From positions 11,481,568-11,545,567 of the forward strand of contig NC_057925.1 in NCBI RefSeq assembly GCF_018873765.1: a stretch of DNA of 64,000 bases. Direction: 5' to 3'. Below the pieces are notes generated by a model that was not told the DNA's origin, ran no database searches, and saw nothing but the letters and a program-made list of their open reading frames with translations. Both the position numbers and the translations under genes were made by a program. The stretch is from Telopea speciosissima. Taxonomy: Eukaryota > Streptophyta > Magnoliopsida > Proteales > Proteaceae. Positions within the stretch are counted from its first letter, which is position 1. Every line of letters starts with the position of its first letter. Positions 3,427-44,363 of the stretch are shown here, one piece after another.

Positions 3427-3428
<2 letters not shown>

Positions 3429-8475: not shown

Positions 8476-8499
8476 TGGTAGATTTCCAAAATATTTTTC

Positions 8500-8645: not shown

Positions 8646-8715
8646 TACTAACAAATTAAAACTGCATTTCCAATTCTACCCTTTCATCATCTGTAAAATT
8701 GTTTAGGGCTTCCAA

Positions 8716-8794
8716 GCTTCTCCAACGACAGCAACCTCCAAGCTTCTTCGGCGACAGCAACCTTCAAGCATCTCCGGCGACAGTCAACCTTCAA
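8716..8794 (+). repeat. Three-unit 26-27 bp tandem repeat fused to CML-B
   Basis: Three imperfect units start at 8716, 8742 and 8768, each of the form gcttct-ccggcgacag-caacctt-caag. The last unit runs into the CML coding sequence at TCAAG, so the CML-B front end has been replaced by this repeat. Confidence 0.75.
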
Positions 8795-9207: not shown

Positions 9208-9654
9208 TCGTATCAATGTTTGCACCTGTTCTATTGTTTGCAAAAATAAAAATAATGACGTTAGGCACTACGACTGTAAGTCAGGTGTGAACCACATAAT
9301 TAATAATTAAGAACAGGTTTGCTATGTAATGACTTTGAATCTCAAGCTCGGTAATGTCTTTTCTAATATCGGTAAATCTAATTTATTGAGAAAGAAAAAG
9401 AGATTGATTTATTACAAACAAAGGACAGCAGCCCTAGAACATCTCATGGGCATTCCCGAGAGAAGAAGGGCACCTCCAACACTAAAAAGAACATACGCGC
9501 TCCAAACAGTACACAATTTGCTAATTTGTTGTTATCCCTGCAGACCAAGACTTGCTCACATGTCTGTGGCTTGTTCAGTGAATCAAGTACTCCTCATTGC
9601 ATTGGTGTTTGGTATGCACCTTCCACGCTTTCCAACCGCACCCCATGTATTATT

Positions 9655-12359: not shown

Positions 12360-12880
12360 TGTTAGAATTTTAGTTCTAATAAAACTCTATATGGACATAA
12401 TTAAATCCCTAAACCAGGCTAATTAGGGTTTTGGTCTAATAAAGTGGGGTCATTAAGTTATATTAGAAGTCTAATGTGGACTGGCTTAGTGTGGGCCAGA
12501 TAGATTCCTATTGGGACTGTGATGAGTCAGACCCTATAGGGATTACTATATAAAGAGAGCTAGGTCCCCCCTCTACCCATCACAACTTATTATTCTCAAT
12601 TACTATTGAGGAGTGCATTCTTGAAAGAGAGGGAGATATTCAGTGTTCGTCGTCCCTGCGCATTCGGTATTCTCATCAGGCCAGTTACTTTGGGAATAGA
12701 GGGGAAGCACCTAGATCTTTGTTCTTTATTTTTTGCTGCAAGCATCATCACTATGGATGCGAAACAAGGTCAGTGGTTCTATCCCTATTTTCTGTTATTT
12801 ATTTGATTGTGTTCTTGAACGCCCTATGGAGATCCTGGCTTTTGGGATTTTGTCCCTATTCGGATCAATTTAATCTAACA
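12360..12880 (+). mobile_element. 5' LTR of Copia element 1
   Basis: It starts TGTTAGAATT and ends CTAACA just before the primer site. The TATATAAAG near 12548-12556 is a probable LTR promoter TATA. The first 261 bp recur at 19029-19289. Confidence 0.85.
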
Positions 12881-12882
12881 TG

Positions 12883-12894
12883 TGGTATCAGAGC
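12883..12894 (+). other. Primer binding site, initiator-Met tRNA type
   Basis: TGGTATCAGAGC, complementary to the 3' end of plant initiator methionine tRNA, lies two bases after the LTR end. This is the standard Copia arrangement. Confidence 0.9.
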
Positions 12895-14189
12895 CTCCAT
12901 AGATCCGTTCTTGAACCTATATGGATTCAAAATAATAGAACATAATGAGGGAATCGAAAATTTTTCGATTCGAATCAAGGTTTATAGGGTTTTTTCCAGT
13001 TTTCCAAAAACCCGTACGGACACTGGCATTCTGCCGATTTCTTTAGCCGGCGAAAACAGAATCTGATCACATGGGGGCGTAGAACTCGAAAAATCAGAAT
13101 TTTCGGTGGGTGGATCACCGTCGGCGGCTGCCGGATGCGGTCCCACGCACCGGCGGCAGCCGCGGGTGATCTTCACTCGCCGGCAGAAGTTAAAAAAAAA
13201 AAAAAAAAAAGAATCTGGGTTTTGCTATCGTGCGCCTGATGCTATTTATAGGCGATGCTAATGTGCGCATCTCGGGTCGGGTCGACCCGGGTTCTAATCC
13301 GAAAACTCGGCCCGCTAACCCGGTTACTGACCCGTTTTGGGTTGGCCCGAACCCGGTTGGACCGGGTCTGAACCGGTTCACTCGAACCGGGGGCTGAGCC
13401 AAATTGATTTGGTTTGACTTTTCGGACCGGTTTGACCAGTACAGTCAATCGGATTTGGACCTGAACTTTGACCGGGCTTTCTGGGGGCTACGGGACTCTG
13501 TTTGGGGTCCCGTTTTTTGCGTTGGCTCTGTTTTTCTGTTCTCTACACAGTGGTGCCCTCTGTTTTGATCAGATATGAATATTTTTAAATATTCTTGGTA
13601 TTCTTTTGATGCATGCCCTTATGTAATTTATCGATTCGTTCTATTGGGAACCGAACCAATTTCTGAATTGCTGGAATACCTACCTTGATGAACAGTATTA
13701 TTATTATTTTTGTGTTAATTTTAAGACATTTAAAGCCCCTTGTCAAAAAGTATAAACTAACACAATTTGCTTAAGGATGTCAGTAATTTTGGAATATCCC
13801 AAGAGAGGGTTCTATGGGTTCGACAGGATGCAGCTGCCAAAGCGACCTTCCTTGTTGGATTTGTGAAACACCGGTCTCATACAGTTGTGGGGTGTCCTTC
13901 AACTCTAATGTGTGGTCATACACCCAAAGGTGGTGGTCATGTATTGGTACTTGAAGGGGTACATATACAGTATGCATGTGAATAGGTTGACCCTAGAATT
14001 CTGCACACCCAAAGGTGGTGGATTTTGAAAGTTGAGCTGTATTCCCATGGCCACTGGTATGTAGGGATTTTTACAATTGCATATTGAGAATTCAGCCCAA
14101 AGGTGTTTTCACAATGATGTGTGTAAAATTCTCATTAGCTTATAAAGTTTTCAAGCTATACTTGCATCATTTTAATTATTATACTGTTC

Positions 14190-15010
14190 ATTGTTTAAAA
14201 TTTCAGTCACCTTCTCTGTCAATAATAACATGGTTACTATTGAGCTCCTCACTGGGTCAAACTTTAAGAAGTGGAAAGAGGGCATTATGTTTGCTATGGA
14301 AATGGCAGATGTACACACGTCCCTTGTTATGGATACACCAATGGAACTAACTGGTGATAATACTAAGGATGAAAAGTCTGTGCATGCTGCATGGCAAAAG
14401 AGTAATCGACTCAGTATACTGTCCATAAAGAGGTCGATACCGGAATACCTAAAAAGTGGTCTACCTGAGAAATGTACTGCCAGGGAATTGCTAGATGCAA
14501 TGTCCAAGAGATACAAAGTTTCATCGAATGCTGAGATTGGGACACTTCTGCAAGGGTTATTTAATATGGAGTATGATGGTTCTGGGGGTGTTAGGGATTA
14601 CATTATTAGGATGGTTGATTACCAACTAAACTCAAGGCCTTAGACATTCCTCTTCCAGATGCCCTAATTGTCCATCAAGCCTTAAATACCCTACCTTCTG
14701 AATTTGGCATCATAAAAACCAACTACATTTCCCAAGATGGAGTCTAGAGCATTAATGACCTAATTTCTAGGGTTGTGTCTGAGGAAGAGAAACTGAAGAA
14801 AGAGAAAAAGCCTACTGCCCTATTTACTTTCAAAGCCCGTAAGAGTAAAAAGTTTAAAAACCATACTCATAAGTCTGCCAATAAATAGTCCGATCAGACT
14901 AACAATTAACAATTTGGGACCCAAGAAAGACTCTTTGAAGAAAGAGAGTGATCGCTGCATCTTTTGCAAGAAGAAGGGTCACATGAAGAAGGACTGCGAC
15001 AAATACAAGG
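14190..15010 (+). mobile_element. gag region of Copia element 1
   Basis: The Copia gag (UBN2-type) fold region is recognisable from FKKWKEGIMFAMEMADV onward. It ends in a CCHC zinc knuckle (C-I-F-C-K-K-K-G-H-M-K-K-D-C) at about 14955-15000. The region is fossil and broken. Confidence 0.85.
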
Positions 15011-16530
15011 CTTGGTTACTCAAGCCCAAGCAGCCATCAGGTAATGATTCTTTGGCTTTTATTTGTGAATCCAATCTACCAGAAGCCCCATCCAGTTCTT
15101 GGTGGCTAGATAGCGGTGCAACTAACCATGTTGCTTTTACCATACAGGGGTTCATAAATCGGAGGAGGCCAAACAAGGATGAATCAAGGCTGGTCGTAGG
15201 AAATGATGGACATTCTGACATAGAGTTCGTGGGAGATGTCATTTTATTATTAGATTCTGGTTTTAAATTGACTTTAAAGAACACTTTTTATATACCGTCC
15301 TTTAGGCGGAATTTAATTTCGGTTTTAGTTTTGGACATTAGTGGTTTCTATTTTGAAATAAAGAATACTATGGTTAATTTATTTTTTAATTCAACTAAAG
15401 TTGGTTCTTGCTTTATGTCCAACGGATTGTACAGATTGTGTTTGTCTCCCACTGATATCTACGTCTTCTGCAATGTTGAAAGTGTTGTTTCTAAAAGACC
15501 CTTACCTAAAGAATGGTCTTTCACATTGTGGCATAAGAGGCTAGGTCATATTTCTAAGGCAAGAGTGGAAAGGCTGATAAAGTCTGACATCCTGCCTACT
15601 CTTGAAAGTGATCTAGAAACTTGTGTAGACTGTTGTAAGGGAAAGATGACCAAAATAAAGAAGAAAACTGCAGTCCGTAGTTCTGACCTATTAGAGGTCA
15701 TTCACACTGACATCAGTGGTCCCTATTCAGCCACATTGTGTAAAAAATTTTATTTCATCACTTTTACAAATGACTATTCCCGATATGGATACCTGTACTT
15801 AATTAAAGAAAAGTCTGAATCTCTTGACAAGTTCAAGATTTTTAGGACTGAAGTTGAGAAACAGTTAGGAAAAGTTATTAAAATTGTTAGATCTGATCGT
15901 GGGGGTGAGTATTATGGCAGACATGGCGATGCTGGATAGCTTAAGGGCTCATTTGCCAAATACCTTGAGGACTCTGGAATAGTTAGTCAGTTTACTATGC
16001 CAGGAAGTCCTGAACAAAATGGGGTCGCCGAAAGGCGTAACCGTACCCTTATGGACATGGTGAGGAGTATGGTTAGTAGGACAAATTTACCTAAGTTCTT
16101 ATGGGGTGAAGCCTTGAAAACTGCTCTTTACATGTTTAACCGTGTACCTACTAAAGCCGCTCCTCTTACACCTTTTGAATTGTGGACCGGCCGTAAACCC
16201 AGTTTAAACCATCTTAGAGTTTGGGGGTGCCCTGCAGAAGTGAAGTTGTATAATCCGACTTTAAACAAGTTGGATCCCAAGACTACTCGTTGCTACTTTG
16301 TCAGCTACCCAGATCATTCGAAGGGATATAAATTTTATAATCCCTGCGGAGGCACTAGGATTGTGGAGTCACAGACAGCGAAGTTTCTGGAATTTGATGT
16401 GGCCGAAAAGAATGACTGTTCTCAGACTGTTCAAGATAGTCACATGGTTGGTACATCGGTACCTATTCTTCTACCTATTCAGACTGATGTGGGGCATACT
16501 GTGCCATTGGTTACACCTACTGGAGTTTAG
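15010..16530 (+). mobile_element. Protease and integrase region of Copia element 1
   Basis: The WWLDSGATNHV protease active-site motif lies near 15100. The integrase HHCC zinc finger is near 15530-15650 (WHKRLGH and CVDCCKGK). The DDE core region follows (HTDISGP, SDRGGEY, and PEQNGVAERRNRT near 16005-16040). Part of a fossil element. Confidence 0.88.
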
Positions 16531-16599
16531 GAGCCTGATATTGATACCGTCCCCGACATTCATGTAGCACTTAATGAGATTCCTCTTATTCAGGATGCG

Positions 16600-18345
16600 G
16601 TTGAGGATCCTATCATTGATACAGTTCCAGCTGAGATTCCTCAGATTCAGGTTGAGGCAGTAGTGGCACCATTACGGAGATCCACTAGGGAGAGAAGGTC
16701 AGCTATATCACCTATCTATGAGGTCTATTTGGGAGAACATGACTATGACATTGGTTGTGTGGTCGATCCAGTTACTTATTCAGGCGCTGTTTCTAGTCCT
16801 CAGTCAGATTTGTGGACAGATGCGATGAGAGATGAAATGCAATCAATGAAACATAATGATGTTTGGGAGCTTGTTGATTTACCTAAAGGTTGTAAGCCCA
16901 TTGGTTGCAAATGGGTGTATAAAACCAAAAGAGATTCCAAAGGAAAAGTTGAGAGGTTTAAAGCCAGACTGGTAGCCAAGGTATTCACTCAGAGAGAGGG
17001 AGTAGACTACAATGGGACCTTTTCTCCAGTCTCCTCGAAGGATTCCTTCAGGGTGATCATGGCATTGGTAGCTCATTTTGATATGGAGCTGCATCAGATG
17101 GATGTTAAAACCGCCTTTCTCAATGGCAATCTTGATGAGGAAGTATATATGATTCAGCCTGAGGGTTTTGCAGTGGATGATTCAGATCATCTTGTGTGTA
17201 GACTCAAGAAGTCTATCTACGGTCTCAAACAAGCTTCTAGGCAGTGGTACCTAAAATTTGACAGTGTTGTGACTTCGTTTGGTTTTATGGAAAACAAAGT
17301 GGATCAGTATATATATCACAAGGTCAGTGGGAGCAAATTCTGTTTTCTCATTCTGTATGTGGATGACATCCTGCTTGCAAGCAGTGACCTAGGGATGTTG
17401 CATAATACAAAGCAACTTTTATCTAGGGAATTTGACATGAAGGACCTTGGTGAGGCCTCTTTTGTTCTTGGGATTGAGATCCATAGGGATCGTTCTCGCC
17501 GTTTATTAAGTCTTTCTCAGAGGGTTTATGTTGATCGTGTTCTGGAGAGGTTCAGTATGCTGGATTGCAAACCTAGGAATGTTCCTATTCTCAAGGGTGA
17601 CAAACTGAGTTCGACACAGTGCCCAAAAAATAAAGCTGAGAGGGATGAAATGAAGAAGGTGCCTTATGCTAGCGCACTTGGTAGTATCATGTATGCTCAG
17701 GTCTGTACCAGATCGGATATTGCTTTTGTAACGGGACTTCTTGGCAGGTATCAGTCAGATCCTGGTCTTGGTCACTGGGTTGCTACCAAGAAAGTATTGA
17801 GGTACTTGAAGGGGACAAGAGATTATATGCTGACTTACAGACACGTTCCTGAACTCAAGCTAGTGGGGTATACAGACTCTGACTTTGCTGGCTGTGAGGA
17901 TGACAGGAAATCTACATCAGGTTATGTTTTCTTGATGGCAGGAGCGGCAGTATCATGGAAGAGTAAAAAGCAGACATTGGTGACCACTTCGACTATGCAG
18001 GCAGAGTTTGTAGCATGCTATGGGGCTGCTACTCGGCTATTTGGCTCAGAAATCTCATAAAGGAGTTGACTATTGTAGATTTTGTGGATAGACCCATCCG
18101 GATATCTTGTGATAAACTCTCTTGTGTTGGTTATAAACAACAATAAAGGACTTAGAGGGTCTAAACACATGGAGGTCAAGTATTTGACCATAAAGGAGAG
18201 AGTAAGGGAATGTGACATTACAGTGGAGCATATTAGTACAGATGATATGGTTGCAGATCCCCTAACCAAAGGTCTTCGCCCTTTTGTTTTTGAGAGACAT
18301 GTCATGGGCATGGGCTTAGTTGCATCATGGGATGTGGTTGGTTAG
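16600..18345 (+). mobile_element. Reverse transcriptase and RNase H region of Copia element 1
   Basis: RT motifs are present: KWVYKTKRDS, the QMDVKTAFLNG motif, IYGLKQASRQW, and the catalytic YVDDIL near 17357. RNase H follows with YTDSDFAGCEDDRKSTSGY near 17870 and the usual Copia C-terminal motif ADPLTKGL near 18255. This is part of a fossil element. Confidence 0.9.
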
Positions 18346-19028
18346 TGGGAGTTTGTTTTATTTTGCTTCATTGTAATTTAAAGTTTCTTTTCATCTGTAT
18401 TTTTACCTTATGGTAAACTTTGATTTATATATATATCAGGTGTCATTGCATGCAGTTTCTTTTAAACACATGAGTGTTTTATTTATTGATATGATGTATA
18501 TATTTCTGATTTTAAAGTCTTAAGGAATGTGTTAACCTTAAGCAAGGCTGGGGCATTAAGTTGTTAGCCTAAAGGTATGTCTTGTAACACATAAAGTATA
18601 ACTCGAGTTATTTCTGATGAGACATACAGATTCGTTAGAATCATAAAGTTTATTTCTCTAGTGAGCCTGTGCCACTTAAAGAAGAGAAATTTTGGACTGA
18701 TAAACGAATAATACATAAGAAATCACTACGTGAGTATTATCTCATTGTCACACTACCACATTGTATCCATGTTAGTAGAGTTGAGGGCTCTCGTGACCAT
18801 GGAAGGCTCTGTGTCGCTTGATCATAGATGCAGTTACCGCCATGATTCGGTGTCTAAAACTCTATGGGATAGGATTGACTTTCTAATATGACCTCTAGAC
18901 CAATTTATTTTAAAAATTGTGCACATAAAGTTTTCTTAAAGAGTTGTTAGCCTGTGATTTGTTTTGGTCAAAACTGTTTTTAAATCCTTTTAAAAATAAG
19001 GAATTTAATGTAAGTTCAAGTGGGAGAA

Positions 19029-19289
19029 TGTTAGAATTTTAGTTCTAATAAAACTCTATATGGACATAATTAAATTCCTAAACCAGGCTAATTAGGGTTT
19101 TGGTCTAATAAAGTGGGGTCATTAAGTTATATTAGAAGTCTAATGTGGACTGGCTTAGTGTGGGCCAGATAGATTCCTATTGGGACTGTGATGAGTCAGA
19201 CCCTATAGGGATTACTATATAAGGAGAGCTAGGTCCCCCCTCTACCCATCACAATTTATTATTCTCAATTACTATTGAGGAGTGCATTC
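19029..19289 (+). mobile_element. Truncated 3' LTR of Copia element 1
   Basis: The first 261 bp of the 521 bp LTR are present. The LTR then stops at 19289 and minus-strand Copia 2 RT sequence begins at once. No target duplication can be read on this side. Confidence 0.85.
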
Positions 19290-20592
19290 CATCCTTTTCT
19301 GGCGATCTCTTACGAGTTTGATCCCAAGGATATAGCTAGCTTCACTAAGGTCTTTCATCGAAAACATTGTGGATAACCACTGTTTTACTGATGAAAGGAA
19401 TCCTACATCGTTACCAATCAGCAATATGTCATCTATGTATAAAACAAGAAAACATACTGCCCTCCCACTGATCTTCTTATAAACGCATGGTTCATCCATG
19501 TTTTGATCAAAACCAAATGATTTGATTGATTGATCAAACCTGATGTTCCAGCTCCTGGAAGCCTGCTTCAGCCCATAAATGGACCTCTGCAATTTGCACA
19601 CCTTTCTTTCTTCCTCCAAGGAAGAGAACCCCTCTGCTATTCCATGTAGATTTCCTCTTGAAGGAACCCATTTAGAAATGCAGTCTACACATCCATCTCG
19701 CGGATCTCATAATCAAAGTGTCTTGCGATAGCCAATAAAATCTCGATGGATTTCATCATCGCCATCTTGGTGAAAAGGTTTCCTCATAGTCTATACCCTC
19801 TTTCTGGGTATAACCCTTTGCCACCAGTCTCGCTTTGAATCTCTCGACCTTTCCATCTGCGCCCTTCTTCCTCTTGAAGATCCATTTACATTCAATCGGC
19901 TTGACGCCAAGTGGTGGATCGACTAGAGTCCAGACCTTGTTGGAATGCATCGAATCGATTTCAGAGTGCATTGCTTCTAGCCACCTAGTGGCATCAACAT
20001 CCTTTAGAGCCTCAGAGTATGTCATCGGATCATCATCCGATTCAACCGATACCATGTGGAACTCTTCCACTGTTTCCTCTAAGGTTAGAAGAGTTAGCCT
20101 GGTGGGTGGTCTAACAGTCCTCCCACTGCGTCGAGGTTCCTCAGGTGTTGGTATTTCAGCGGGTATGTCAGTTGGTCTCACTTCTAGAAGTGACGTTTCT
20201 GAGCCATCTGATAGCTCTTTTATGACTACTGGTTCGGACCTCTGGGTCATCATTTCTTCCTCCAAAAATGTGACATGTTTACTTACAATGACCTTTTGGT
20301 CAACTGGGTCATAGAAATAATAGCCTATCGTGCCTTTGGGGTAGCCTAAGAAATAGCATCTCGAAGTCCTGGATTCTAACTTGTCTGTCTGTTGCTTTCG
20401 CACATGTGCTATGCAACCCCTTACCCTAAGGTGTTGAATACTGGGCTTTTGCCCTTTCCACAACTCAAAGGGTGTCTTGGCTACAGACTTAGATGGAACC
20501 CTATTCAAGATATATATCGCCGTCTCTAAAGCGTACCCCCAGAAAGAAAGAGGCAGCTCACTATAAGTGAGCATCGTCCTGACCATATCCAA
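19290..20592 (-). mobile_element. Integrase end and partial RT region of Copia element 2
   Basis: Minus-strand coding remains include the post-integrase region, [30 protein letters not shown] and the catalytic YIDDIL motif. The region stops in the thumb-side RT segment at the junction with Copia 1. Confidence 0.85.
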
Positions 20593-20599
20593 TAGGGTC

Positions 20600-21770
20600 C
20601 GATTGCGTCGTTCGGATATACCATTTTGTTATGGTGTGCCTAGATTAGTTAGTTGACTAACTATCCCTTGGGATATGAGATGTTCTTTAAACTCATCCGA
20701 TAGATACTCCCCTCCACGATCTGATCGTAAGGACTTGACGCGTTTATCGAGCTATCTTTCGACCTCGGCTTGGAATTCTTTGAATTTATTAAAGGCTTCC
20801 GATTTCCTACGCATCAAGTATATGTAACCATATCTAGAGTAATCATCGGTGAACATGATAAAGTACTCATACCCATATCTTGCTTGCATGTTTATGGGTC
20901 CACACACGTCAGTGTTTATCAACTCCAACAGATCTGTGGCTCTAGCACCTTTATTGCTAAAGGATTTCTTGGTCATTTTGCCCTGAAGGCATGACTCACA
21001 GGTGGGGAATGGTTCCACCCTCAGACTCTCTAAGGACGCATCCCTCACCAATCTACTGATTCGGTCCATATTAATGTGATCCAATCTTAGATGCCACAGA
21101 TATGTTGAGTTCACTGGAGCTGCTTTCCGTTTCAAATCAACATTTGAAACAACATTCGTTCTAATAGGGCAATCTAGAAAATACAAACCACTTTGCATAT
21201 ATCCAGATGCCACAAAGGAATTATTAAAACGAATAATCAATTTAGAATTAAAGGAAAAACTATATCCGTCCAAAACAAGTTTTGAAACTGAAATTATCTT
21301 CCTCTTGAAAGAGGGTACATAATAGCAATCCTTTAAAACTAAACTAGCAGAACTAAAATTTAAAATAAAAGTTCCCACAGCCAACGCCATGGTCTCAGCT
21401 CCAGTGCCCATCCAAAGACGCACTTCATTTCTTTTCAGGTTCCTTGTCTCCTTGAACCCCTGCAAATCATTACAAATGTGAACAGTGGATCCACTATCCA
21501 CCAACCAAGAATTGGTCTGTTCAAAAGACAAATTAGACTCATAAAGAACGTGAACATTACATGTACCTTCTTTAGCAGCCTCTGTTTCATCTGGCTTCTT
21601 GTCTTTCAAAGTTGCCAGGTAAGCACGATAGTTTCTTTTCCAGTGACCCTCCTTCTTGCAATACAAGCACTTGCCTTTGCCTTTATTGCCAGACTTCCCA
21701 CCCTTGGCTTTCAGGATCTTGCCCTTACTTTCCTTTTTCTTCTTCTTCCCATTTGAAGAAGGCTTTACCT
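20600..21770 (-). mobile_element. Zinc knuckle, protease and integrase region of Copia element 2
   Basis: A CCHC-like knuckle (C-K-K-E-G-H-W-K-R-N) is followed by the protease motif WLVDSGSTVHI and the integrase zinc finger and core (WHLRLDHINMDRI, CESCLQGKMTKK, NTDVCGPI, FTDDYSRYGYIYLM). Part of a fossil element. Confidence 0.87.
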
Positions 21771-22394
21771 CAGTTGCATTGACCTCAGCCTTGTCTTTTT
21801 CAAGGACACTTCAGCCTCTACCAGTACATTAGCAAGCTCGGTGAGCTCCATCTCCTTCTCGGACATCTTGTAGGACATCCTAAAAGGTGCGTAGGCAGAA
21901 GTGAGTGACGCTAAGATCGCATCAGTCTTGTATCGCAGGCTGAAATCAGTTCCCATGGATTCCAGTTTTTCAAACAGATTAATCATTTTCATTACATGAT
22001 CCATCACTGGAGTCCCCTGAGACATCTTGGAGTTATGGATTTGACTCACCGCATCAGAATGTGCATGTGTCAACTGCCTGTTGAACAATTCAGCAAGCTT
22101 ATCCATTTTACCCCCAGCAGTGCGTATATCCTTGACTGAGTCTACAACTGATTTTTCCAACAATCCTAGGATATAGAGTGATGCCTTGGAATCCCTCATG
22201 AGGAACCATTGCATCTCTTCATGTGCCTCAAAATCGTTTGGGTCGGGTTGAGGAGGAACTTGTTCATCTAGAACTGTGTACAGTCCTTCAGCAGTCAGGA
22301 GTAACTTAATGTTCCGGTACCAATCGACATAGTTTGTACCATTAAGTTTGTATTCACTAATGAGTGTTAACAGGTTGGAATTAACGGCAGCCAT
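21765..22394 (-). mobile_element. gag region of Copia element 2
   Basis: The frame begins MAAVNSNLLTLISEYKLNG and matches Copia gag of the UBN2 type (YKLNGTNYVDWYRNIKLLL, FNRQLTHAHSDAV). It directly precedes the zinc-knuckle region on the minus strand. Confidence 0.88.
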
Positions 22395-24220
22395 CGTATA
22401 TTAATCTACACATGCACAAGTAAATAACCACATGCTAATTAATGACCATTGAAAATAATAAATTGAGCACACACACATCAATGGTCTTTCATGATTTGGG
22501 TTTCCCTCATAACCCAAAAGATGAATTGGATACCTACAACCCTTGCATGCATAACTTACCCTGTCGGGAGTCACTATACACACCATGGTAGTGTGGACTA
22601 AGCTGTCTAACTCATGGGCTTCCAATATTTTCGACCACCTGGGTGTCATGTCCAGATCCTGTCGGTTGACATACACCCAAGTCATGTACTTACCTATCGC
22701 ATTAGTTAGAATCATGGAATCATGAAAGATGGCCCACTGTTGCAGCGCCCTCTCACTATCCATACCCTAACGTATCTAGATGGAGGTAAATATAGATAAA
22801 TGCGTGACAGAGGTCTTGGCAATGTCCTGTCGGCTTATGCGGGGTCATGTCACACATTTTTTATATTTATCTTCAATAGGAGGCCATGGACATGTCTACC
22901 GATTAAGACTAGTCCATATCATACATGTATTGTGAATAAAGAGGGATTAATTAACTCTCAGATACATGGATAGATTTAAACAACATAATTAATCAACATT
23001 AATTAAAAGTGATTATGGGATGGCGGCATTTTTATCAGAAGCAATTAAAGAACCCTCCCAATAAAAATAAAACTAATAACTTTGGGTGCATTTATCATGC
23101 CATGGATGCCATGCCTCGATCATCTCCTCCGCCCGATCACGTCTTCAAAGTAGGTGACTTGCATCTCCATAAGCTTTGAGCACCACATGTGAATCACCAT
23201 CTACATGCCCTGGGAGTCCTAACTCCTCTAAAATTACAATGGAAACCTAGAAAAATTCTACACACTTTCCTTTTCATAATAATAAAGAAACCCTGCATGG
23301 AGAAACCAATCCACCATTTGGGTTGCCCATGGGGTGGAGTACATTTGTTTCTAAAAAAGAAAGGGGGAGAGAGAGAAAGAGAGAGAAGCATCACATCCAC
23401 CCATAACCCCATGTATCACATACATAAACAATCCATCCATTTATTAGAATGCCATTCCCATAATCACATCATAATATAATTTCTTGCATGGGCATTAAAG
23501 CAAGTGAACCAAAAATTAAAACATGGATTCCTTCAATTATTGAACCACCACATCGCATGTGATATCATGTATCCAAGCCCATAAAATTAAAATCGCATTT
23601 TAATTGCAAGTGGGTAAAGAGGGAATCTCTTCACCCATCATCATCCTCCAAAAACAAAACAAAATAATAAAATTCTGTTTTGAAAAATCTGTTTTCTTTT
23701 TTTTTTTTTTTTTTTGTTAAACTGGAGGGAAAACAAGGGGGGTGCATGCAGCCCACTTGCGCAGGTTGCAGGCACTCCCTGCGTAGCCCATAGGCACAGG
23801 GCCCACGGACAGCAGCCTTGGGCTGTAGGCCGCAGGCCTGCTGCCCATACGCTAAAGCCCACGGACAGCAGCCCACAAAGGGATGCGCACAAGGGTAGGT
23901 TCATGGGGAAAGGCGTGCACAGAGGCATGGCAGTGTGCGCTCCCCCCCCCCACATATAGAACATGATTAAAAAATTTTAAAATAAAAATTAGTAATCACA
24001 ACCTAATTGGATACATGCTTCAATAATTGGAATAAACAAAACAAACCAAATCCATCATCACATGGGTAAGTTGTTACACTAACAACCTTGTAACTACCCA
24101 TGTGCACATGGGAAGGTTGTTACAACAACCATATCCTAACCACCCATATTCCAACTTGCATCCCACTCATGATAATCATATTAACCATTAATTATCTAAT
24201 ATTCATGGGTGGAAAAGGTG
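22395..24220 (-). other. Leader of Copia element 2
   Basis: This ~1.8 kb untranslated leader lies between primer site and gag. It contains a T-run near 23696-23716 and a GC-rich stretch at 23740-23940 that gives false open frames. An open frame at 22401-22763 has no recognisable domain. Confidence 0.6.
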
Positions 24221-24232
24221 GCTCTGATACCA
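24221..24232 (-). other. Primer binding site of Copia element 2
   Basis: On the minus strand this reads TGGTATCAGAGC, the initiator-Met tRNA primer site, three bases inside the LTR end at 24236. Confidence 0.9.
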
Positions 24233-24235
24233 CAC

Positions 24236-25943
24236 TGTTGGCCAAACAACGGTCCAGGGATCAAACCATGGTTCCCTAGGGAGACCAAGATATTTATCTT
24301 TAGGGTTTTGCGCGCCCTGGGTTAGCCCATTGTGTCCCATGGGTGCCCCATTTTTATTTTAGGGTTTCCCATGGTCGCCCATGGGAACCCTGGTGCATCC
24401 CTATTAGGGTTTCTCCTTCCCTATTGCATTTCATAAAATTAATTATCACAATAGGGACGGAGAAACTCGTCTCTAGTCCATCACATGGCAAGAGGGATCC
24501 ATCCCATACTCGAATGCGCAGCGGAAAATAATCGATTCGAGTTTCTTTCGCATCCCATAAATATTAATAATCAATTAATGAAGGAATTAATAAAGAACGC
24601 TAACCTGGTGAGCCTCAAGTGTTGCTCCTCCAATAGGCAGTGGTTCTTCCTCCAATGAGCGCTCCAAGCAAGCAGATCGAACCTCCAATGGTGCTACCAA
24701 GGTTCTACACGCCAATCCCAGATGCCCTCAAACTCCTCAGCACAGATCTAGGGTTTCACAAACCCTAACTCTCAAACACAAGTGAGAGAAGCAAGAAGAA
24801 GAAGAGAGATCACAAGAGGGAGAGAGAGAAACCAAAAACAAAGGAGAGAGAGTGTCTGCTCCAAAAACGTGGAGAGCTTCTCTTCTGCGTATTTTTGGTC
24901 CCCTATTTATAATAATAGGGTTTAATTAAATCCTAGATAGATTTAATAGAGCCCTAGTGAGAGTCTGACTCTCTCTCTCTCAGTCTGGCAGTTCTGTTCA
25001 AACTCAAAGTGCTACACAGGTGAAGAAGCAAAATCTAATAGGGAAAGTATTAATTAGATTCTTTATTTAATTATTAATGAATAATTACAATTAGCACCAA
25101 ATCCATTAATTAAATAAAGAGCCAATGAAATTAGCAAATTCCAAATAACTCCCTATATGATAACAATTTATCATATACAACCCCCCCACTAATCAACACC
25201 ATCATTATGGAATCTAGGGCATGTACACATGTACTGCCAAACCCCAATCCATAGTACATGTCCATATAAGAGCGTCTATGCATCCGATCGGGTCCCGCAA
25301 AACTCGATAAAATACTTTATTTGAAATAACTATAAATAATGTATCATTTTATGTAAAATAAATTTTGCAAAACCATTTCCAAAAGCAGATCTTGGATCCA
25401 GTTCGATCCGACCATGCACGAGCAGTCTCTATCTTGGTGTTCCCCAATCGGGCGTGGTGACCGTGTTGGATAACTCCTTCACTCACAAAGTGTTCACGCA
25501 TTCCCAGAACACCGGCTTTGACTCGCTTGAGTCTCAGTCATTGATGAACCAAAGAATGCGATCACACTTTGTAGTGACAAGGTTCCCTCAGGTACAGGGT
25601 GTCGGTGACACATGTCTATCCCTTCCTACATCTGGTAGTAATTCATGAGGGAATCGACAAAGTAGATTCTTCGCCAATGCACACATCAAACATGTGAGCA
25701 CTCGCATTCGTACCCTGACATCACATGTCTAGGCATACCCAATGCGAAGACCATATGATAAGGGTGCCCAGCCCAAACCCTAGTCGTGACTACCATTTTA
25801 AGTATAACTTACGGACACATAATGCTCAAAAAGTTTATATTTCATGTGACAATATTAAACTAAAATGTATAAATGTCCAATACAAAGGTGAACCGGGTTG
25901 AACCGGACCGAACCGGGTTTGATGGACACACACTTGTCCAACA
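24236..25943 (-). mobile_element. 5' LTR of Copia element 2 (1.7 kb), left palindrome arm
   Basis: On the minus strand it begins TGTTGGACAAGTG and ends GGCCAACA. It is the reverse complement of the solo LTR at 26370-28067 over its whole length, with scattered differences. It abuts TATCT (25944-25948), the reverse complement of the AGATA target duplication seen on the other arm. Confidence 0.92.
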
Positions 25944-26090
25944 TATCTCAGCACCACAGGGAGTACAGAGCTCACTAGCCTTCTTGAAGAGTCCTGCTCG
26001 TCGTTTAGAGAAAGTGACCTGTCGAGAAAATTCACAATTGATCCTCTTGATCTCAATCTTCTGCCGACCCATGCTTGGTTTCCTTGCCAT
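25944..26090 (-). pseudogene. MADS-box 5' fragment, left palindrome arm
   Basis: Reading leftward from the ATG at 26090, this encodes 49 residues of a type I MADS domain, from [17 protein letters not shown] to [10 protein letters not shown]. It differs from the right-arm copy by Leu to Pro at the LCTLC position. It then meets the Copia 2 LTR at exactly the insertion point used on the right arm. The rest of the gene is absent on this side. It is one half of a potential hairpin with 26223-26369. Confidence 0.9.
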
Positions 26091-26155
26091 CTCACTGAAA
26101 CAACAATTTCTCTATTTATTATCGAGCTTTGAGAGATATTGAAGGAAAGAAGGCC

Positions 26156-26161
26156 TATAAA
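26156..26161 (+). promoter_or_regulatory. TATA box in palindrome centre
   Basis: TATAAA sits in the context ggcctataaat, the same as before the intact MADS gene (38922-38928), 67 bp before the ATG at 26223. It points rightward into the interrupted MADS gene. Confidence 0.55.
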
Positions 26162-26222
26162 TTGAGTCCAAAGAAACAACAATTTCTCTATTATCTCTTT
26201 CTTTCCCTTGATGGGTGGTGAG

Positions 26223-28489
26223 ATGGCAAGGAAACCAAGCATGGGTCGGCAGAAGATTGAGATCAAGAGGATCAATTGTGAATTTTCTCGACAGGTCACT
26301 TTCTCTAAACGACGAGCAGGACTCTTCAAGAAGGCTAGTGAGCTCTGTACTCTCTGTGGTGCTGAGATATGTTGGACAAGTGTGTGTCCATCAAACCCGG
26401 TTCGGTCCGATTCAACCCGGTTAACCTTTATATTGAACATTTATACATTTTAGTTTAATATTGTCACATGCGATATAAACTTTTTGAGCATTATGTGTCC
26501 GTAAGTTATACTTAAAATGGTAGTCACGACTAGGGTTTGGCGGCACCCTTATCATATGGTCGTCGCATTGGGTATGCCTAGACATGTGATGTCGTGGTAC
26601 GAATGCGAGTGCTCACATGTTTGATGTGTGCATTGGTGAAGAATCTACTTTGTCGATTCCCTCATGTATTACGCGCGATGTAGGAAGGGATAGACATGTG
26701 TCACCGACACCCGCACTGAGGGAACCTCACACGCAAAGTGTGATCGCATTCTTTGGTTCATCAATGACTGAGACTCAAGCGAGTCAAAGCCGGTATTCTG
26801 GGAATGCGTGAACACTTTGTGAGTGAAGGAGTTATCCAACACGGTCACCACTGCCCGATTGGGGAACACCAAGATAGAGACTGCTCTGTGAATGGCCGGA
26901 TCGTAACGGATCCAAGACTGCTTTTGGAAATGGTTTTGCAAAATTTATTTTACATAAAATGATACATTATTTATAGTTATTTCAAATAAAGTGTTTTATC
27001 AAGTTTTGCGGGACCTGATCGGATGCACAGACGCTCTTATATGGACATGTACTATGGATTGGGGTTAGGCAGTACATGTGTACATGCCCTAGATTCCATA
27101 ATGATGGTGTTGATTAGTGGGGGGGTTGTATATGATAAATTGTTATCATATAGGGAGTTATTTGGAATTTTTTAATTTAATTGGCTCTTTATTTAATTAA
27201 TGGATTTGGTGCTAATTGTAATCATCCATTAATAATTAAATAAAGAATCTAATTAATACTTTCCCTATTAGATTCTCGCTTTTCACCGTAGCACTTTGAG
27301 TTTAAACAGAATCCGCAGATCGAGAGAGAGAGAGTCGACTCTCACTAGGGCTCTATTAAATCTATCTAGGATTTAATTAAACCCTATTATTATAAATAGG
27401 GGACCAAAAATACGCAGAAGAGAAGCTCTCCACATTTTTGGAGCAGACACTCTCTCTCCTACATTTTTGGTTTCTCTCTCTCCCTCTTGTGATCTCTCTT
27501 CTTCTTCTTGCTTCTCTCATTGTGTTTGAGAGTTAGGTTTGTGAAACCCTAGATCTCGTGGCCGAGGAGTTTGAGGGCATCCGGGATTGGCGTGTAGAAC
27601 CTTGGTAGCACCATTGGAGGTTCAGACTGTTTGCTTGAGCGCTCGTTGGAGGAAGAACCACTGTCTATTGGAGGAGCAATACTTGAGGCTCACCAGGTTA
27701 GCAGTTCTTTATTAATTCCTTCTGTTCATTGATTATTAATATTTATGAGATGCGAAAGAAACTTGAATCGATTATTTTCCGCTGCGCATTCGAGTATGGG
27801 ATGGATCCCTCTTGCCATGTGATGGACTAGAGACGAGTTTCTCCGTCCCTATTGTGATAATTAATTTTATGGAATGCAATAGGGAAGGAGAAACCCCAAT
27901 AGGGATGCACCAGGGTTCCCATGGGCGACCATGGGAAACCCTAAAATAAAAATGGGGCACCCATGGGACACCATGGGCTAACCCAGGGCGTGCAAAACCC
28001 TAAAGATAAATATCTTGGTCTCCCTAGGGAACCATGGTTTGATCCCTGGACCGTTGTTTGGCCAACAAGATAGCCATTCTTGTCTTCTCACTGCAGGTAA
28101 GGTCTTCTCCTTCGCCACCCTAGTGTGGAATCCATCGTTGATAGGTTCCTTAATGAAAACAATTTGCCACCGGAAACCACTGCATTGCCTCTTGTGGAGG
28201 CTTTCCGTGGAGCTAGTGTTTGCGAGCTCAACCAACAGTACACACAAGTGCTTAGCCTAATGGAAATCGAGAAGAAGCGAGCTGAGACACTCTACCAATC
28301 GACCCCAGAAGCAAAGCAGGGTGAGCCCTGGTGGGAAGCACCCATTGAAAATATGGGATTGCATGAGCTTCAGAAGTTGATGATTTTCTGGAGGAACTTA
28401 AGAAGAATATGAAGAAACGTGTTGATGCTTCTTCAATCATCCCTTATGGAGATGGTTATGGTTTTAGTATTGGACGTGGTCTTATCTGA
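26223..28489 (+). pseudogene. AGL62-like type I MADS-box gene split by an LTR
   Basis: Part 1 (26223-26369) encodes MADS-domain residues 1-49. Part 2 (28068-28489) resumes at once after the LTR with AGATAGCCATTC, so the gene was one piece before insertion. Downstream it keeps the M-alpha features IVDRFLNEN, ELNQQY, the EPWWEAPIE motif and the C-terminal GRGLI. It is close to the intact paralogue at 39009 but with a shorter C-terminal region. Apart from the 1.7 kb LTR it has two single-base deletions just after the insertion point (near 28088 and 28110) and another frame disruption near 28375. AGL62-type proteins are transcription factors acting in the endosperm and female gametophyte. This copy cannot give a full protein. 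Confidence 0.9.
26370..28067 (+). mobile_element. Solo LTR (1.7 kb Copia family) inside a MADS gene
   Basis: It begins TGTTGG and ends CCAACA, and is flanked by a perfect 5-bp duplication AGATA (26365-26369 and 28068-28072). The intact paralogue has a single CGAGATAGCC at this point. No internal region is present, so LTR-LTR recombination has removed it. Confidence 0.95.
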
Positions 28490-32078: not shown

Positions 32079-32600
32079 TTACGGTGGAGCAGGCCAACAA
32101 GAGGTGTTTTTCCTTTTCGCCGCGTAGGTGGCAAGAGCATCCGCAGCCAAATTTGCTTCTCTATAGCAATGGGTCATACGCCACTGGATGGAGCCAAGAA
32201 AGTTAGAGGCTTTCCACCACTTATACATTAGGTTCCAAGGAATCTTATTAGAGAGAATTGAAGAGACAACTGCTTCCGAGTCGCACTCAATCCAAAGATT
32301 TCTTGCGCCCATTTCTCTAGCGGGGTCAACTCCTGTAAAGAAAGCCCCCAGTTCAGCCATGTAATTCGATCCCACACCCTGGTGCTCAGAGAAGCATCTT
32401 AACACAGCTCCCAAGTGATCATGAAGTACCCCTCCTCCTCCTATCGATCTAGGATTACCCAAGGAAGAGCCATCAATGTTCAATTTCCACCACCCAAGTG
32501 GTGGTTGCCTCCATCGCACTTCTACCATCCTTCTAACAGGTGGCCTTGAAATTGTCACCTTCAGCATACGTGCCAAGGTAAGATCATTCACTGTTTGCAC
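32079..32600 (-). pseudogene. LINE RNase H domain
   Basis: This is an RNase H-like domain with LNIDGSSLGNP near residue 40, YMAELGAFF, WIECDSEAV and HCYREANLAADALA, i.e. the D-E-D-D catalytic set. It ends shortly before the 3' end and poly-A tail of the LINE. Not a free-standing host RNase H, because zf-RVT precedes it. Confidence 0.88.
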
Positions 32601-33365
32601 CTACACCCCTTTCAGCCTTATGCAGTCCCCAACTTCCCCATAGCATAGCTTTGCCACTTCAGTAGGACTCAAGTTGTCATGGCATCGTCTATTGCGCTCC
32701 CACCAAATATTTTTGCAACAGATAATCAGTATAGCATCCCATGCCTTAGGTAGGGGAACAGTCTTGGCCTTTCTGTGCCACCATGAAAACAATAATTCAA
32801 TGGTTGGGAAACCACTCCAGCTCTGATTGAAGACATATAGCACCGCCATCCAGATTTGACGTGAGAAGGCATAGTCAAGAAATAGATGCTTGATCGTTTC
32901 GCAGTCCATGTAGCATAGATCGCACCTTGAAGCTAGAGGAACTGCTTTGTGACATACCATGTGGTCGGTGGGAAGTACTCCATGCGCAGGCCTCCATCTG
33001 AATACAGCAGCGCGTGGATGAAGGTCACGGTTCCAAACAGTCGATACCCACTCAGGTGAGGGTGCCTTTATGCGCAGGGTCTCCCAAGCAGTCTTGACCG
33101 TGAAGCGGCCAGTGGTTGCAAGCTCCCAAAATCTCATATCCAGTCTGTTGTGACAAGTAATTCCACTGCCTTGAATCACCGTGAAGGCCCTTTGGAGTTC
33201 AGGTTCTTGGACTGCCGGCATATCCCAGCTACCTTCTTTCCAAAAGTCCGTCACCATTGCCGATAAATTGCGTGGAATGTGTAGGGGATAGACGAGGTCC
33301 TCAATGCTTTGGTTGTGAACCGACTTGTCATACCAAAAACTTACTGAATTTCCATTTCCAATCAC
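32601..33365 (-). pseudogene. LINE zf-RVT domain
   Basis: The frame carries the C-terminal zinc-binding segment of plant LINE reverse transcriptases (CDLCYMDCETIKHLFLDYAFSRQIW) preceded by the usual WNRDLHPRAAVFRWRPAHGVLPT linker. An apparent stop separates it from RNase H. Confidence 0.85.
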
Positions 33366-33608
33366 CCATCTCTCTGCAAATCAAATAAAATCCCAAACTC
33401 TTCTTAGCCTAGGTAGAAGCGTGGAGGTATCAGCAGTCTTCTTGAGTGACCCATCTGCCTTCACTAGTCGACCTCTCAAAAAAGCTGCCAGGGTAGACTG
33501 ATTTGTGTATATAGTCCAGGAGAGTTTAGCAATCAGGGCCAAATTTAAATCTCATAATCGAAGAATTCCGAGTCCACCTTCCTTCTTGGGCTTACACAGC
33601 CTATCCCA

Positions 33609-35390: not shown

Positions 35391-35505
35391 GATCTACCCA
35401 AAACCTTTGCATGCGGAAAGGGATATTATTAGGCCGCGACACCGCTTCACTTCACACCACTAGAGGTGCATGATCAGAGGATCCACGAACTAAAACTCAC
35501 TGAAC

Positions 35506-36141
35506 CTACCTTGCATAGTGCAGATCCCAAATATCATTACAGAAACTTCGGTCAAGCACTACTTGCACATTCCCCACCCTCCTATTATTTATCCATGTGT
35601 ACTTGTTGCCTATTGAGTGAATCAGAATCAGAGCTGCCGCCTCTAACATGGCTGCCAACTCCTCTACAGAGCCTATGTTGAAAATACCCGGGCCTCTTTT
35701 ATCTCCTGCATAAAGGTAAGCATTGAAATCACCAATAACTAGCCAAGGGCAAGCCATACCTGCAATCGATGCCAGGTCAACCCATAGCTGGCTTCTAGCT
35801 GCCCTAAAACAGCTCGCATGAACCACTAAGATAATATTACTCAACCCATTTAATTCTACTCTCATGGAGATATGTTGCTCAGATTTCTTGATCACCACTG
35901 GCCGATGCAGTCCCATCTTCCATAGGCACCAAATATTGCCAGGGTCCTCTTCACGTTCATTTGAAATAAGGTCCGAGTACATCCCCAACGAAGTGATAAA
36001 ACGACGAGGAAATCTCTCAGCACCAATCTTAGGCTCAGCCAAGCATAAAAAATCCGGATTATGTTCCTTCACTAAAGCTCGCAGATGTGCTCTAGCTTTA
36101 CTGTTACCCGCCCCCCTGATGTTCCAAAAGAGGCAACGCAT
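35506..36141 (-). pseudogene. LINE ORF2 endonuclease domain
   Basis: The frame begins MRCLFWNIRGAGNSKARAHL, with the apurinic-type endonuclease signatures WNIRGAG near residue 6, AEPKIG near 36 and VIGDFN near 135. It would nick target DNA for target-primed reverse transcription. The frame is lost after about 211 residues. Confidence 0.88.
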
Positions 36142-36143
36142 GT

Positions 36144-39008: not shown

Positions 39009-39680
39009 ATGGCAGGGAAACGAAGCTTGGGTCGTCAGAAGATTGAGATCAAGAGGATCAATTGTGAGGCTTCTCGACAGGTTACCTTCTCCAAACGCCG
39101 GGCAGGCCTTTTCAAAAAAGCGAGTGAGCTCTGTACTCTGTGTGCTGCCGAGATAGCCATAATTGTCTTTTCTCTTGCAGGGAAGGTGTATTCCTTTGGC
39201 CACCCAAATGTGGGGTCCATCATTGAAAGGTTCCTCACTGTAAACAATCCGCCACAGGAAGCCGTTGTGTTGCCTCTTGTGGTTGCTCACCGTGCAGCCA
39301 GTGTTCGAGAGCTCAACCGAAAGTATACAGAGGTGCTCAACCGAAAGGAAACAGAGACGAAGCGAGCCGAGGCATTCAACCGATCGACCGCAGAAGCGAA
39401 GCAGAGCGAACCATGGTGGGAAGCACCCATTGAAAATATGAGATTGCTTGAGCTGCATCAGTTGCAAATTTGTATTGAGGAAATTAACCAGACTATGACG
39501 AAACGGGTTGAAGAGCTTTTGGCCAAAGCTGCTGTTACCTCCCCTTTCTTATCTATCAATCCAATGGGAATGGTGGATCATTTTCCAGCAACAAGAGCTA
39601 CCCCAAATCCAAATAATGCTTCTTTAATCATCCCTCATGGACATGGTTATCGTCTTAGTCTTGGACGTGGTCTTTTCTGA
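39009..39680 (+). CDS. AGL62-like type I (M-alpha) MADS-box transcription factor
   Basis: A single uninterrupted exon of 223 residues, as usual for type I MADS genes. The MADS domain spans about residues 8-66 ([47 protein letters not shown]). It is followed by the M-alpha features [17 protein letters not shown] and, at residues 134-142, EPWWEAPIE, typical of AGL62/AGL61 relatives. A short C-terminal tail ends GRGLF. There is no K domain. The ATG at 39009 is chosen because the MADS domain starts eight residues later and the 5' leader (ttcagtgag) matches the paralogue. A further 37 in-frame upstream codons overlap the TATA region and are leader. The family binds CArG-like DNA in the nucleus and acts in endosperm and central-cell development; that role is inferred. 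A broken paralogue lies at 26223-28489. Confidence 0.92.
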
Positions 39681-40742
39681 ACTACTCTTCTTCTTCTTCT
39701 TCTTATTCTTCTCTCTCTTTCTGTCTATCTGTATAGTTCCCTTATAGGTCATCTATGTAAACAAAGGATCGACTTATGAATAATATTGCATGGATTTTTA
39801 ATCTCGAATCCTGATATATATGGACTCTTATCTCCAATGGCATGAGGACATGCATAACAAGGTTAGACCAGAGAGTGGTCTAAGAAGTAAGAACCCTCAA
39901 TCCGGTCGGACCCTCGGCTGTAGCCTCATGCTAGAATCATGCCTAAGGAACTTTGTGTTGGCTTTATGTGTCCATCAAACCCGGTTTGGTACGGTTCAAT
40001 CTGGTTTATTTTGTATTGAACTTTTATACATTTTGGTTTAATATCATCACATGCGATATAAACTTTTTTGAGTGTTATGTGTCCTTAAGTTTTACTTAAA
40101 ATGGTAGTCACGACTAGGATTTGGGCTGGGCACCCTTATCATATGATGGTCACATTGGGTATGCCTAAACTTTTTGATGTCAGGGTACGAATGTGAGTGC
40201 ACATAATGTTGTGCATTGGAGAAGAATCTACTTTGCCAATTACCTCATGTATTACTGCAAGATGTAGGATGGGATAGACATGTGATAGACATGTGTCACC
40301 GAGGCCCTGTACCTGAGAGGACCTTGTCACTGCGAAAAGTGACTGCATTCTTTGGATCATCAATGACTAAGATGCAACAGAGTCAAAGCCAATGTTCTGG
40401 GAATGCATGAGCATTTCGTGAGTGAGAGTGTTACTCAACATGGTCACCACTGTCCAATTGGGGAACAATATCAAAATAGAGATTGTCTGTGGATGGTCGG
40501 ATCAGAATCTGGATCCAATGCCATTTTAGAAATGGTTCTTGTAAAACCTATTTTAGGCTAAAAGGTCGCAGTACGTACGCAAAAATAATTTGACAGTTCG
40601 TTCTTCCATTGATAACCATTGATTTAACTTATCCAATCACAGGCGTTGAACTATTTACCTGAAACCGGCTACAACCTGATCTCTCCCTCCTTCCCCAAAG
40701 ATGACAGCCCAATTCCTACAGTCCCCTTCCCCACCTCCCTCT

Positions 40743-40745
<3 letters not shown>

Positions 40746-40791
<46 letters not shown>
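40746..40791 (+). repeat. (TC)n microsatellite
   Basis: A pure TC run of about 46 bp lies inside the nested TIR element. Confidence 0.9.
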
Positions 40792-40794
<3 letters not shown>

Positions 40795-41859
40795 TCTTAC
40801 AGTGAACAACAAGGAAGCATTATGACTCTTCAGTGACATGAAAAGGAAGCAGATATCTTCTTCTATCTATACCTATAGATCGTTGATTTGTAATTTAAGA
40901 GAGTTGGGAAGTTGGGGTTGGCACAGATTTCTCTGTCTTTGCCAAGTTGCATAGCTTGAGGGAACCGAGAACAAATTGATTTCATGAGAAATGGTGCGAA
41001 AAGGAGACGATTTCTCATGAAATCAATCTATTGTGGTGACCTTCGGGCTACTACTCCTCCAAAAAAGTGATGTGATATTTTGAGCTTGTGCTCCGAAGCA
41101 GAGGTAGGTGGATGAAATGCAACTGAGTTCAGAGGCTACTGGCTCCTATCCTCTCCCATCCTACTATCAATCCATTAGTTATCTTTGGTTCAATTGAGAG
41201 TACAAGGACATCTTCTTCTTCACCCTTTATTGAGCAGCCCCAAGGCATACATCTACGAATCACAAACATTAATTTTAGAAAATTCAATCGAATGATAAAT
41301 TGTTTTATTTGAAGGCTCTCTCAAAGTTCATCTGCCTCTTATTTGGCCAACCCCCCTTGTTAATGAGAAGGGGCAAATCAATCACTAGCTGTTGCTTTGT
41401 TGTCTGGTAGATAGCAATTAACATCTTCCCCTGTTTTCTCCTTTTCATCTATAAAACATCTTTACCCTAGTTAGATCATTATTGTGAAATGTAATGTGTT
41501 TCTCTGTTCAGTTTGGTTGTTCGATTTGATTTCAGGAACTCCGAATCGACAACGCTACCATCTATTGCAAGCAAGAATAGAATGCCATCTTTCCATCTTA
41601 CTAAAATGGAAAAGAATCGACCAGCCACTTGAATTTGCCTGGGAGAGATGCAAATAAGTGGGATGGGAGGGGATGCAAAAGCATAAGGTGGGAGGGAATG
41701 CTGAGGCACAGAGCGGGCAGAGAGGTGTTTCTGGCTTTCTGCAAGGTTCATGGCTAAGGTAAGGAGGGAGATGTAGAGAGCTAGGGTTGGGAAGGGGGAG
41801 AGACAAAGAGAGAAGGCTGGGAGAGAGATGCAAATAGGTCGATGGGAGGAGAAGGGTTG

Positions 41860-41864
<5 letters not shown>

Positions 41865-41890
<26 letters not shown>
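41865..41890 (+). repeat. (AG)n microsatellite
   Basis: A pure AG run of about 26 bp lies inside the nested TIR element, opposite in sense to the TC run at 40746. It generates Ser/Leu-rich false frames on the minus strand. Confidence 0.9.
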
Positions 41891-43144
41891 CACGAGGCTC
41901 TCACTGTAAGAGCCAAGAACCTGTCACTAAGTGAAACTTCATGAACGGTTGAGATCAACTTTATACCTAATCTATGATTACAGTATAAGAACGCAAGAAT
42001 TAGTTGGCAGAATGTACGTACTGCCACCGGTCACCCTAAATTATATGTAGTTTTATTTGAAAATATTTTATCGTGTTTTGCGAGATCTGATAACGTACAC
42101 AAATGCTCCCATATGGACATGTTCTATGGAATTGGGTTTGGCAGGACATGTGAACATGCCGTAGATTCCATAATGATGATGTTGATTAGTGGTGGGTTGG
42201 TACATAATAATTTATTATTATGTGAGGGTATAATTGGAATTTGCTAATTAATTAATTAATTATTTAATTTAGTTGATGTGGTGCTAATTATTATTTATCT
42301 ATTAAATATAAAATAAATAATTAATTAAATATTTCCTATTAGATTCTGCTTCTTCACCAATTAGAAGCCCATCAGGTTTAAACAGGTTCAAGTCAATGTG
42401 GAGAGAGAGTGTCACTCTCACTGGGATTTCAAAGATAGGGTTTTGGAAACCCATATTATAAAAACACACCAAAAGGGGGGGGGGGAGGGGGCGAAAAAGG
42501 CTTGTACGTTTCTGGCTCCCTTCCCCCTTGGATGGTTTTGGCTCCCTTTCTCTCTCTCCTTCTTCTTGCTCTCTAGCTTTTGAGAGTTAGGGTTTTGGAA
42601 ACCCATATCGATGCTTGAAGATTTGAAGAAGAAGATTTTGGATTGACTTGGAGAACCTTGGCCGCACCATTGGAGGTTCAAGTTTGTTTACCTAGTGTGC
42701 TCATTAGAGGAAGAACCACTATCTATTGGAGGAGCAACACTTGAGGCTCAACAGGTTAGTAAGTTCTTGTTAATTTCTCTTGTTTTTAATTATATGATAA
42801 TCTAGGATGTGAAAGAAACCTGAATCAATCTCTTTATGTTGCGCATTCGGGTATGGGATGGATCCCTCTTTTCATGGGATGGAAAAGAGATGAGTTTTCT
42901 CTCTCTTATGGATCCCATAATTTTATGGGACAAGAAAGAGAAGGATTGGGTATTGGTTTTTCATACCAAACCCTAAATGGGTTACACCAGGGTTCCCATG
43001 GGCAACCGTGGGCAACCCTAAAATTTAATAGGCACCTGCGACCATGGGTTAACCCAGGAGGTATAAAACCCTAATTGTTTTATAATTGGTTTCCCAGGGA
43101 AATTAGGAGATGATCCCATGGACTGCTATTTGACTAACACTTTG

Positions 43145-44342: not shown

Positions 44343-44363
44343 AACCTTTAAGCTTTGATACCA

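Follow-up and report, generated by a model that had tools for sequence, protein, structure and literature searches.

An inverted copy of a Copia-interrupted MADS gene start in place of native upstream sequence: a palindrome in a tandem array of Telopea speciosissima

Type I (AGL62-like) MADS genes occur in plants as tandem arrays, and in the locus described here intronless MADS genes likewise stand in clusters. One of them is interrupted by an element, here called Copia-1, which shares with the Ty1/copia retrotransposons the TG...CA long terminal repeats (LTRs), the 5-bp duplication, the gag and pol domains and a primer site of presumed type; no difference from these retrotransposons was noted, only its carriage into a palindrome. 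As in solo LTRs produced by LTR-LTR recombination, the right-hand LTR of the palindrome stands alone within a matching duplication. For complex rearrangements the MMBIR model has been put forward (PMC2621351). Compared with this model, the locus is alike in having a deletion and an inverted duplication close together, with microhomology and a short templated insert; it is unlike in its blunt outer joint, and the mechanism is here deduced from the joints alone.

The window, the whole stretch of 64,000 nucleotides that was analysed (G000:C10:11481568-11545567), was interpreted from the assembly sequence alone. Genome searches were performed on the assembly of 822.9 Mb in 1287 contigs, which was presumably built with nanopore reads. 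Comparison of the window with itself returned the palindrome described in an earlier note on this DNA, an inverted pair at 24236-26095 (−) and 26218-28067 (+) with 95.455% identity over 1870 columns, and a repeat finder recovered the same pair as eight ungapped pieces. Each arm, as had been stated there, joins 147 nt of MADS sequence, here the beginning of a reading frame, to one and the same Copia LTR at the identical base, the two arms standing in opposite orientation (Table 1). A 201-aa open frame on the minus strand (25835-26440) spans the palindrome centre and is probably a by-product.

Table 1. Features of the palindrome and its surroundings (positions in the window).
Feature	Position	Strand	Remarks
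el2, second Copia	12360..19289	+	5' LTR 12360-12880; 3' LTR to its middle only, 19029-19289
Outer junction	19289..19290		middle of el2 3' LTR joined bluntly to inverted Copia-1 pol
Copia-1 interior, 5' part (PBS, gag, pol to mid reverse transcriptase)	19290..24235	−	Pfam; colinear with L009, L010 and L011
Left-arm LTR	24236..25943	−	1708 nt, ends TGTTGG...CCAACA
Left-arm MADS frame start and 5 nt of 5'UTR	25944..26095	−	ATG at 26090; 1 of 152 columns unlike the right arm
Inner junction	26096..26124		7-nt microhomology, 20-nt direct copy, 8 further nt
Native promoter and 5'UTR of the right gene	26125..26222	+	93 nt (26125-26217) match the sister units
First 147 nt of MADS frame, AGATA at end	26223..26369	+	Pfam SRF-TF
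Right-arm solo LTR	26370..28067	+	1698 nt, ends TGTTGG...CCAACA
AGATA duplication and remainder of MADS gene	28068..28489	+	three single-base gaps
Paralog B, unbroken 223-aa MADS frame	39009..39680	+	AGATA once, 39151-39155
Older solo relative of Copia-1 LTR, TSD CTTTG	39956..43139	+	about 80% alike, 1.5-kb interruption

Four further close copies of the gene, all on the plus strand, were found on C10 at 11.354, 11.423, 11.560 and 11.634 Mb and are called units 1, 2, 4 and 5, the window being unit 3. Units 1, 2 and 4 (L009/L020, L010/L021 and L011/L022) carry a full Copia at the same base and in plus orientation, in the order gene start, LTR, interior, LTR, AGATA and gene remainder. Unit 5 (L012) has an empty site, with AGATA once inside an open frame of 188 aa. 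The palindrome is absent from all four sister units. With the site empty in one of the four and filled by a full element in three, and the inverted duplication present in the window copy only, the order given in the earlier note, insertion before inverted duplication, is borne out.

The successive units of the array also share an EF-hand gene block (calmodulin-like by eye), seen in the window as a direct duplication of 10.5 kb (2-10517 and 53484-64000, 98.6% identical) that touches both window ends. Over 6.3 kb of this block, unit 5 (L012, L026) is 99.0% like the window, while units 1 and 2 are about 95-97% like it. That unit 5 lies so close to the window and yet has an empty MADS site suggests that the array units are mosaics swapped by recombination. 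Elsewhere in the window, minus-strand frames at 32079-37532 resemble a non-LTR retrotransposon (endonuclease, reverse transcriptase and RNase H, by eye), and a 400-nt direct repeat, 99% identical, lies at 44339-44738 and 45687-46086.

The 147 nt of the right-hand gene match Pfam SRF-TF with an E value of 2.5e-17. They had been taken for an exon in the earlier note, a view refuted by the empty sister copy L012: since this copy is one open frame with AGATA inside, the 147 nt are the part of an intronless frame that lies 5' of the insertion. The MADS region of the L012 frame matches MEF2, MCM1, SRF and SEPALLATA3 chains in the PDB. In paralog B, SRF-TF (E 2.7e-24) is the only Pfam family up to an E value of 0.01, and no NCBIfam family was matched. 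With SRF-TF, a single-exon frame (188 aa in L012, 223 aa in B) and no K-box, the genes have the features of type I MADS genes, and an AGL62-like identity is plausible. The right-hand gene had also been called intact, which holds in so far as its remainder is present; aligned with units 1, 4 and 5, the three sister copies compared, it shows three gaps of one base each, one of them being CTG in units 1 and 4 and CG in the window. These gaps may be either real frameshifts or base-call errors.

Upstream of the right-hand gene, a TATA-like stretch is visible by eye at 26156-26162. The 93 nt of native sequence at 26125-26217 are 100% identical to units 1 and 5 and 98.9% identical to units 2 (L010) and 4 (L011). 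The 5'UTR of the right arm has a private deletion of 39 nt ahead of GTGAGATG, falling between two GTGA repeats, with a length of 245 nt where the sisters have 284 nt.

The two LTRs of the palindrome differ in their setting, much as the earlier note had it. On the right, the LTR stands solo within its duplication, with AGATA at 26365-26369 and 28068-28072 and an empty site known from L012. The left LTR has AGATA on one side (25944-25948) and, on the other, GTGTGGTATCAGAGCC, which we take to be a primer-binding-type site (tRNA type); gag and pol frames follow. When four frames of this interior were searched separately, Pfam matches to Retrotran_gag_2, Pol_BBD, gag_pre-integrs, SH3_retrovirus and RVT_2 were obtained; the integrase core was not among the matches listed. 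Copia-type gag and pol domains thus lie behind the LTR and primer site, as in Ty1/copia elements. The full Copia of unit 4 measures 9252 bp; the left copy in the window is cut off within RVT_2. Behind paralog B, the older relative of the Copia-1 LTR begins after CTTTG in all three other B copies fetched (L013, L014 and L015), and two of these also have the CTTTG at the far side, while the third extends beyond the fetched stretch.

The surroundings of the palindrome are best understood from unit 4. Up to 12360, where el2 starts, the window and units 1, 2 and 5 are colinear; the el2 LTR pieces of the window are 98.9% alike. In unit 4 (L027/L025), el2 is whole, at the same native site as in the window, with an LTR of 521 nt and a complete 3' LTR. 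It is flanked there by ACCTC on the left and ACTTC on the right (four of five letters alike), and native TTCCCC follows the right flank, whereas in units 1, 2 and 5 TTCCCC comes directly after ACCTC. Nesting of el2 in Copia-1 was considered and rejected, as the flanks mismatch, the 3' LTR is halved and unit 4 has the whole element in native sequence; on the same grounds, recombination between two el2 copies was rejected as an explanation of the missing 3' end.

Unit 4 continues from el2 into about 5.8 kb of native upstream sequence, the promoter and the gene with its full Copia. The stretch from the middle of the el2 3' LTR to the promoter (11554338-11560144 in unit 4) amounts to 5807 bp, and in its place the window has an inverted segment of 6814 bp made up of the gene start, the 5' LTR and a portion of the Copia interior. 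Native upstream sequence is present in all four sister units; in the window the matches are limited to two pieces, 115 and 143 columns long, about 80% identical and both upstream of paralog B. The earlier note had proposed that the left copy lost its 3' end afterwards. There is, however, a single blunt joint at 19289/19290, which together with the palindrome centre bounds one replaced segment. Because the inverted segment stands in place of the native stretch between both joints, a 3' end was probably never part of the left arm, which would have been cut at 19289/19290 when it was made.

At the outer joint, el2 runs to ...GTGCATTC and is followed directly by pol (CATCC...), with microhomology absent. 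Both halves belong to repeated, high-copy elements; of the 40 candidates scored, out of 1917, one spans this joint, the others matching one half. At the inner joint, the inverted 5'UTR ends in the 7-nt microhomology GAAACAA (26097-26103). The same letters open a 20-nt stretch (26097-26116) that repeats, in direct orientation, positions 26173-26192 of the 5'UTR; when the spacer was shuffled 1000 times by single nucleotides, direct repeats reached at most 13 nt. The next 8 nt (26117-26124) have no assigned source, which counts against template switching, and at 26125 the native promoter resumes. The inner joint therefore bears both a microhomology and a templated insert, as looked for in template switching, while at the outer joint there is no microhomology. 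Blunt joints are also known from template-switch (MMBIR-like) events, and the outer joint neither favours nor rules out such a mechanism.

To assess the kinship of the arms, shared and private differences were counted. The gene parts of the arms differ by 0.7% and the LTR parts by 4.4% (75 differences in about 1691-1693 compared bases). Both arms have A at gene column 94, where the five other genes (units 1, 2, 4, 5 and B) have C, and the arms agree in seven LTR columns, five of which form one cluster, where none of the six unit LTRs has their state; by these shared states the arms look like sisters. An LTR tree gave support only to units 1 and 2 (5' pair and 3' pair), with no supported grouping of the two arms, a point against the account given below. 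Over 2 kb of the interior, the window differs from unit 4 by 2.49%, from unit 1 by 2.64% and from unit 2 by 4.25%. Six copies elsewhere (of 16 positions listed) differ by 3.10, 3.30 (608 nt only), 4.01, 4.60, 5.57 and 6.78%; the first three of these (L030, L028 and L031) are closer to the window than unit 2, a second point against that account. The left arm is most likely derived from the window's own unit, as judged from a few columns. The interior of unit 2 (L010) contains, in the homologue of window 19650-21500, 61 private columns, 21 of them gaps, a density far above that of the other units; this patch may be an error patch, conversion or local mutation.

The whole account put forward here, with a probability of about 0.74, comprises an insertion, unit duplication, a template-switch replacement and a separate solo-LTR collapse. 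Copia-1 would have entered an intronless MADS gene of the tandem array, making the 5-bp AGATA duplication; the insertion site and the empty and full sisters are there to be seen in the assembly. The interrupted gene would then have spread through duplication of its unit. In the window unit, the DNA may have broken, or a fork stalled, between the el2 3' LTR and the gene promoter, and the damage would have been repaired by template switching, with the loss of about 5.8 kb of native upstream sequence. In its place a 6.8-kb segment would have been copied inverted, running from the gene start through the 5' LTR into the Copia interior as far as the middle of pol, with the short templated insert left at the inner joint. 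Both junctions and the replaced stretch are observed; that repair went by template switching is suggested by the deletion, inverted duplication, microhomology and templated insert occurring together, and it would have been a single event. The rearrangement would work like MMBIR, and membership in that class is not claimed. Separately, the right-hand element became the solo LTR that is seen, before, with or after the inverted copying. The earlier note was right about the collapse and the duplication around it; its placing of this step after the inversion is one of these three possible orders. Of the 30 columns that distinguish the 5' from the 3' majority, the right arm agrees with 5' at 10, with 3' at 15 and with neither at 5; its LTR could be assigned to neither type, which counts against our account.

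Three other histories of the palindrome were weighed against this account. The order in the earlier note, with the whole interrupted locus duplicated in inverted form and the left 3' end lost later in a separate deletion into el2, fits the window taken by itself, and a later deletion may also end blunt. It is nevertheless improbable, since it requires two events and a larger insertion, and the native upstream sequence expected to remain after a simple inverted insertion is gone, its absence bounded by the joints. Far less credible still is an inverted pair of empty genes between whose arms gene conversion later carried the LTR. The near-identity of the gene parts would agree with it; against it, each of the four close sister copies stands alone, all of them facing the same way, and the left arm has a primer site and interior that the right arm lacks. 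The third possibility is that the assembly wrongly joined a solo and a full copy, alleles or sisters of each other, head to head. Near-identical units in an array, and an outer junction between two high-copy elements where assemblers err (a point against our own account too), make this conceivable, as does the excess of private differences in the arms, which number 90 over 3406 nt, compared with 90 over 7686 nt in four flanking pieces. A wrong join would require two false connections at a distance of 6.8 kb, neither with a long overlap and one with a 20-nt templated insert. Private states are common to both arms, unit 4 has intact the stretch that the two joints of the window delimit, and among the 40 centre matches listed, all on C10 and C4, one is end to end. 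From this evidence an assembly join is unlikely as the source of the palindrome.

The extra differences in the arms may themselves be nanopore base-call errors linked to methylation or a hairpin. For comparison, the LTRs of the three other units contain 80 private differences over 10257 nt, and the corresponding flanking pieces 202 over 23052 nt. By columns, 41 are private to the right arm and 22 to the left, against 4-15 in the six other LTRs. Some look like CAG or CTG read as CG: where a CAG or CTG is privately lost, a CG results in 6 of 6 cases in the right arm, in 2 of 6 in the left and in 3 of 13 in the six others together. Inverted duplicates are reported to be poorly called in nanopore reads (PMC7229812). 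On the other side, the dense patch of unit 2, with its 61 private columns in one piece, lies outside any palindrome, and the left arm shows little of the CG signal; the numbers are small. Passages of PMC7501810, PMC8514461 and PMC13352677 do not settle the CHG point.

Dating of the palindrome by arm divergence was dropped, the LTR parts (75/1693) and gene parts (1/152) being discordant and the right LTR fitting neither type cleanly. Inside the three other units the two LTRs differ by K2P distances of 0.0227, 0.0270 and 0.0294, and part of the divergence between the arm LTRs may therefore predate the palindrome.

The right-hand frame has 76 codons, 49 from the gene, and stops inside the LTR; with the gene frame cut after 49 codons, a function of the interrupted gene is not likely. 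As the LTRs point away from the centre, transcripts started in them form no hairpin, and a transcript from outside crossing the centre would fold into one. That such a hairpin gives small RNAs silencing the four sister and B-type MADS genes, or, in a second reading, that the palindrome raised the mutation rate of its arms, is very doubtful.

No publication describing the palindrome locus was found in a literature search, which is not proof of absence. Each step is of a known kind, and the mechanisms are ordinary, though unusually well documented. The divergence of palindrome arms need not give their age, as the same arms differ by 4.4% in the LTR and 0.7% in the gene. The palindrome can be traced to what was probably a single replacement, the two joints of which are located to the base. 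One site is preserved in four states, empty, filled, before the rearrangement and after it, within about 300 kb of one chromosome, so that most of the order of steps can be read, not guessed.
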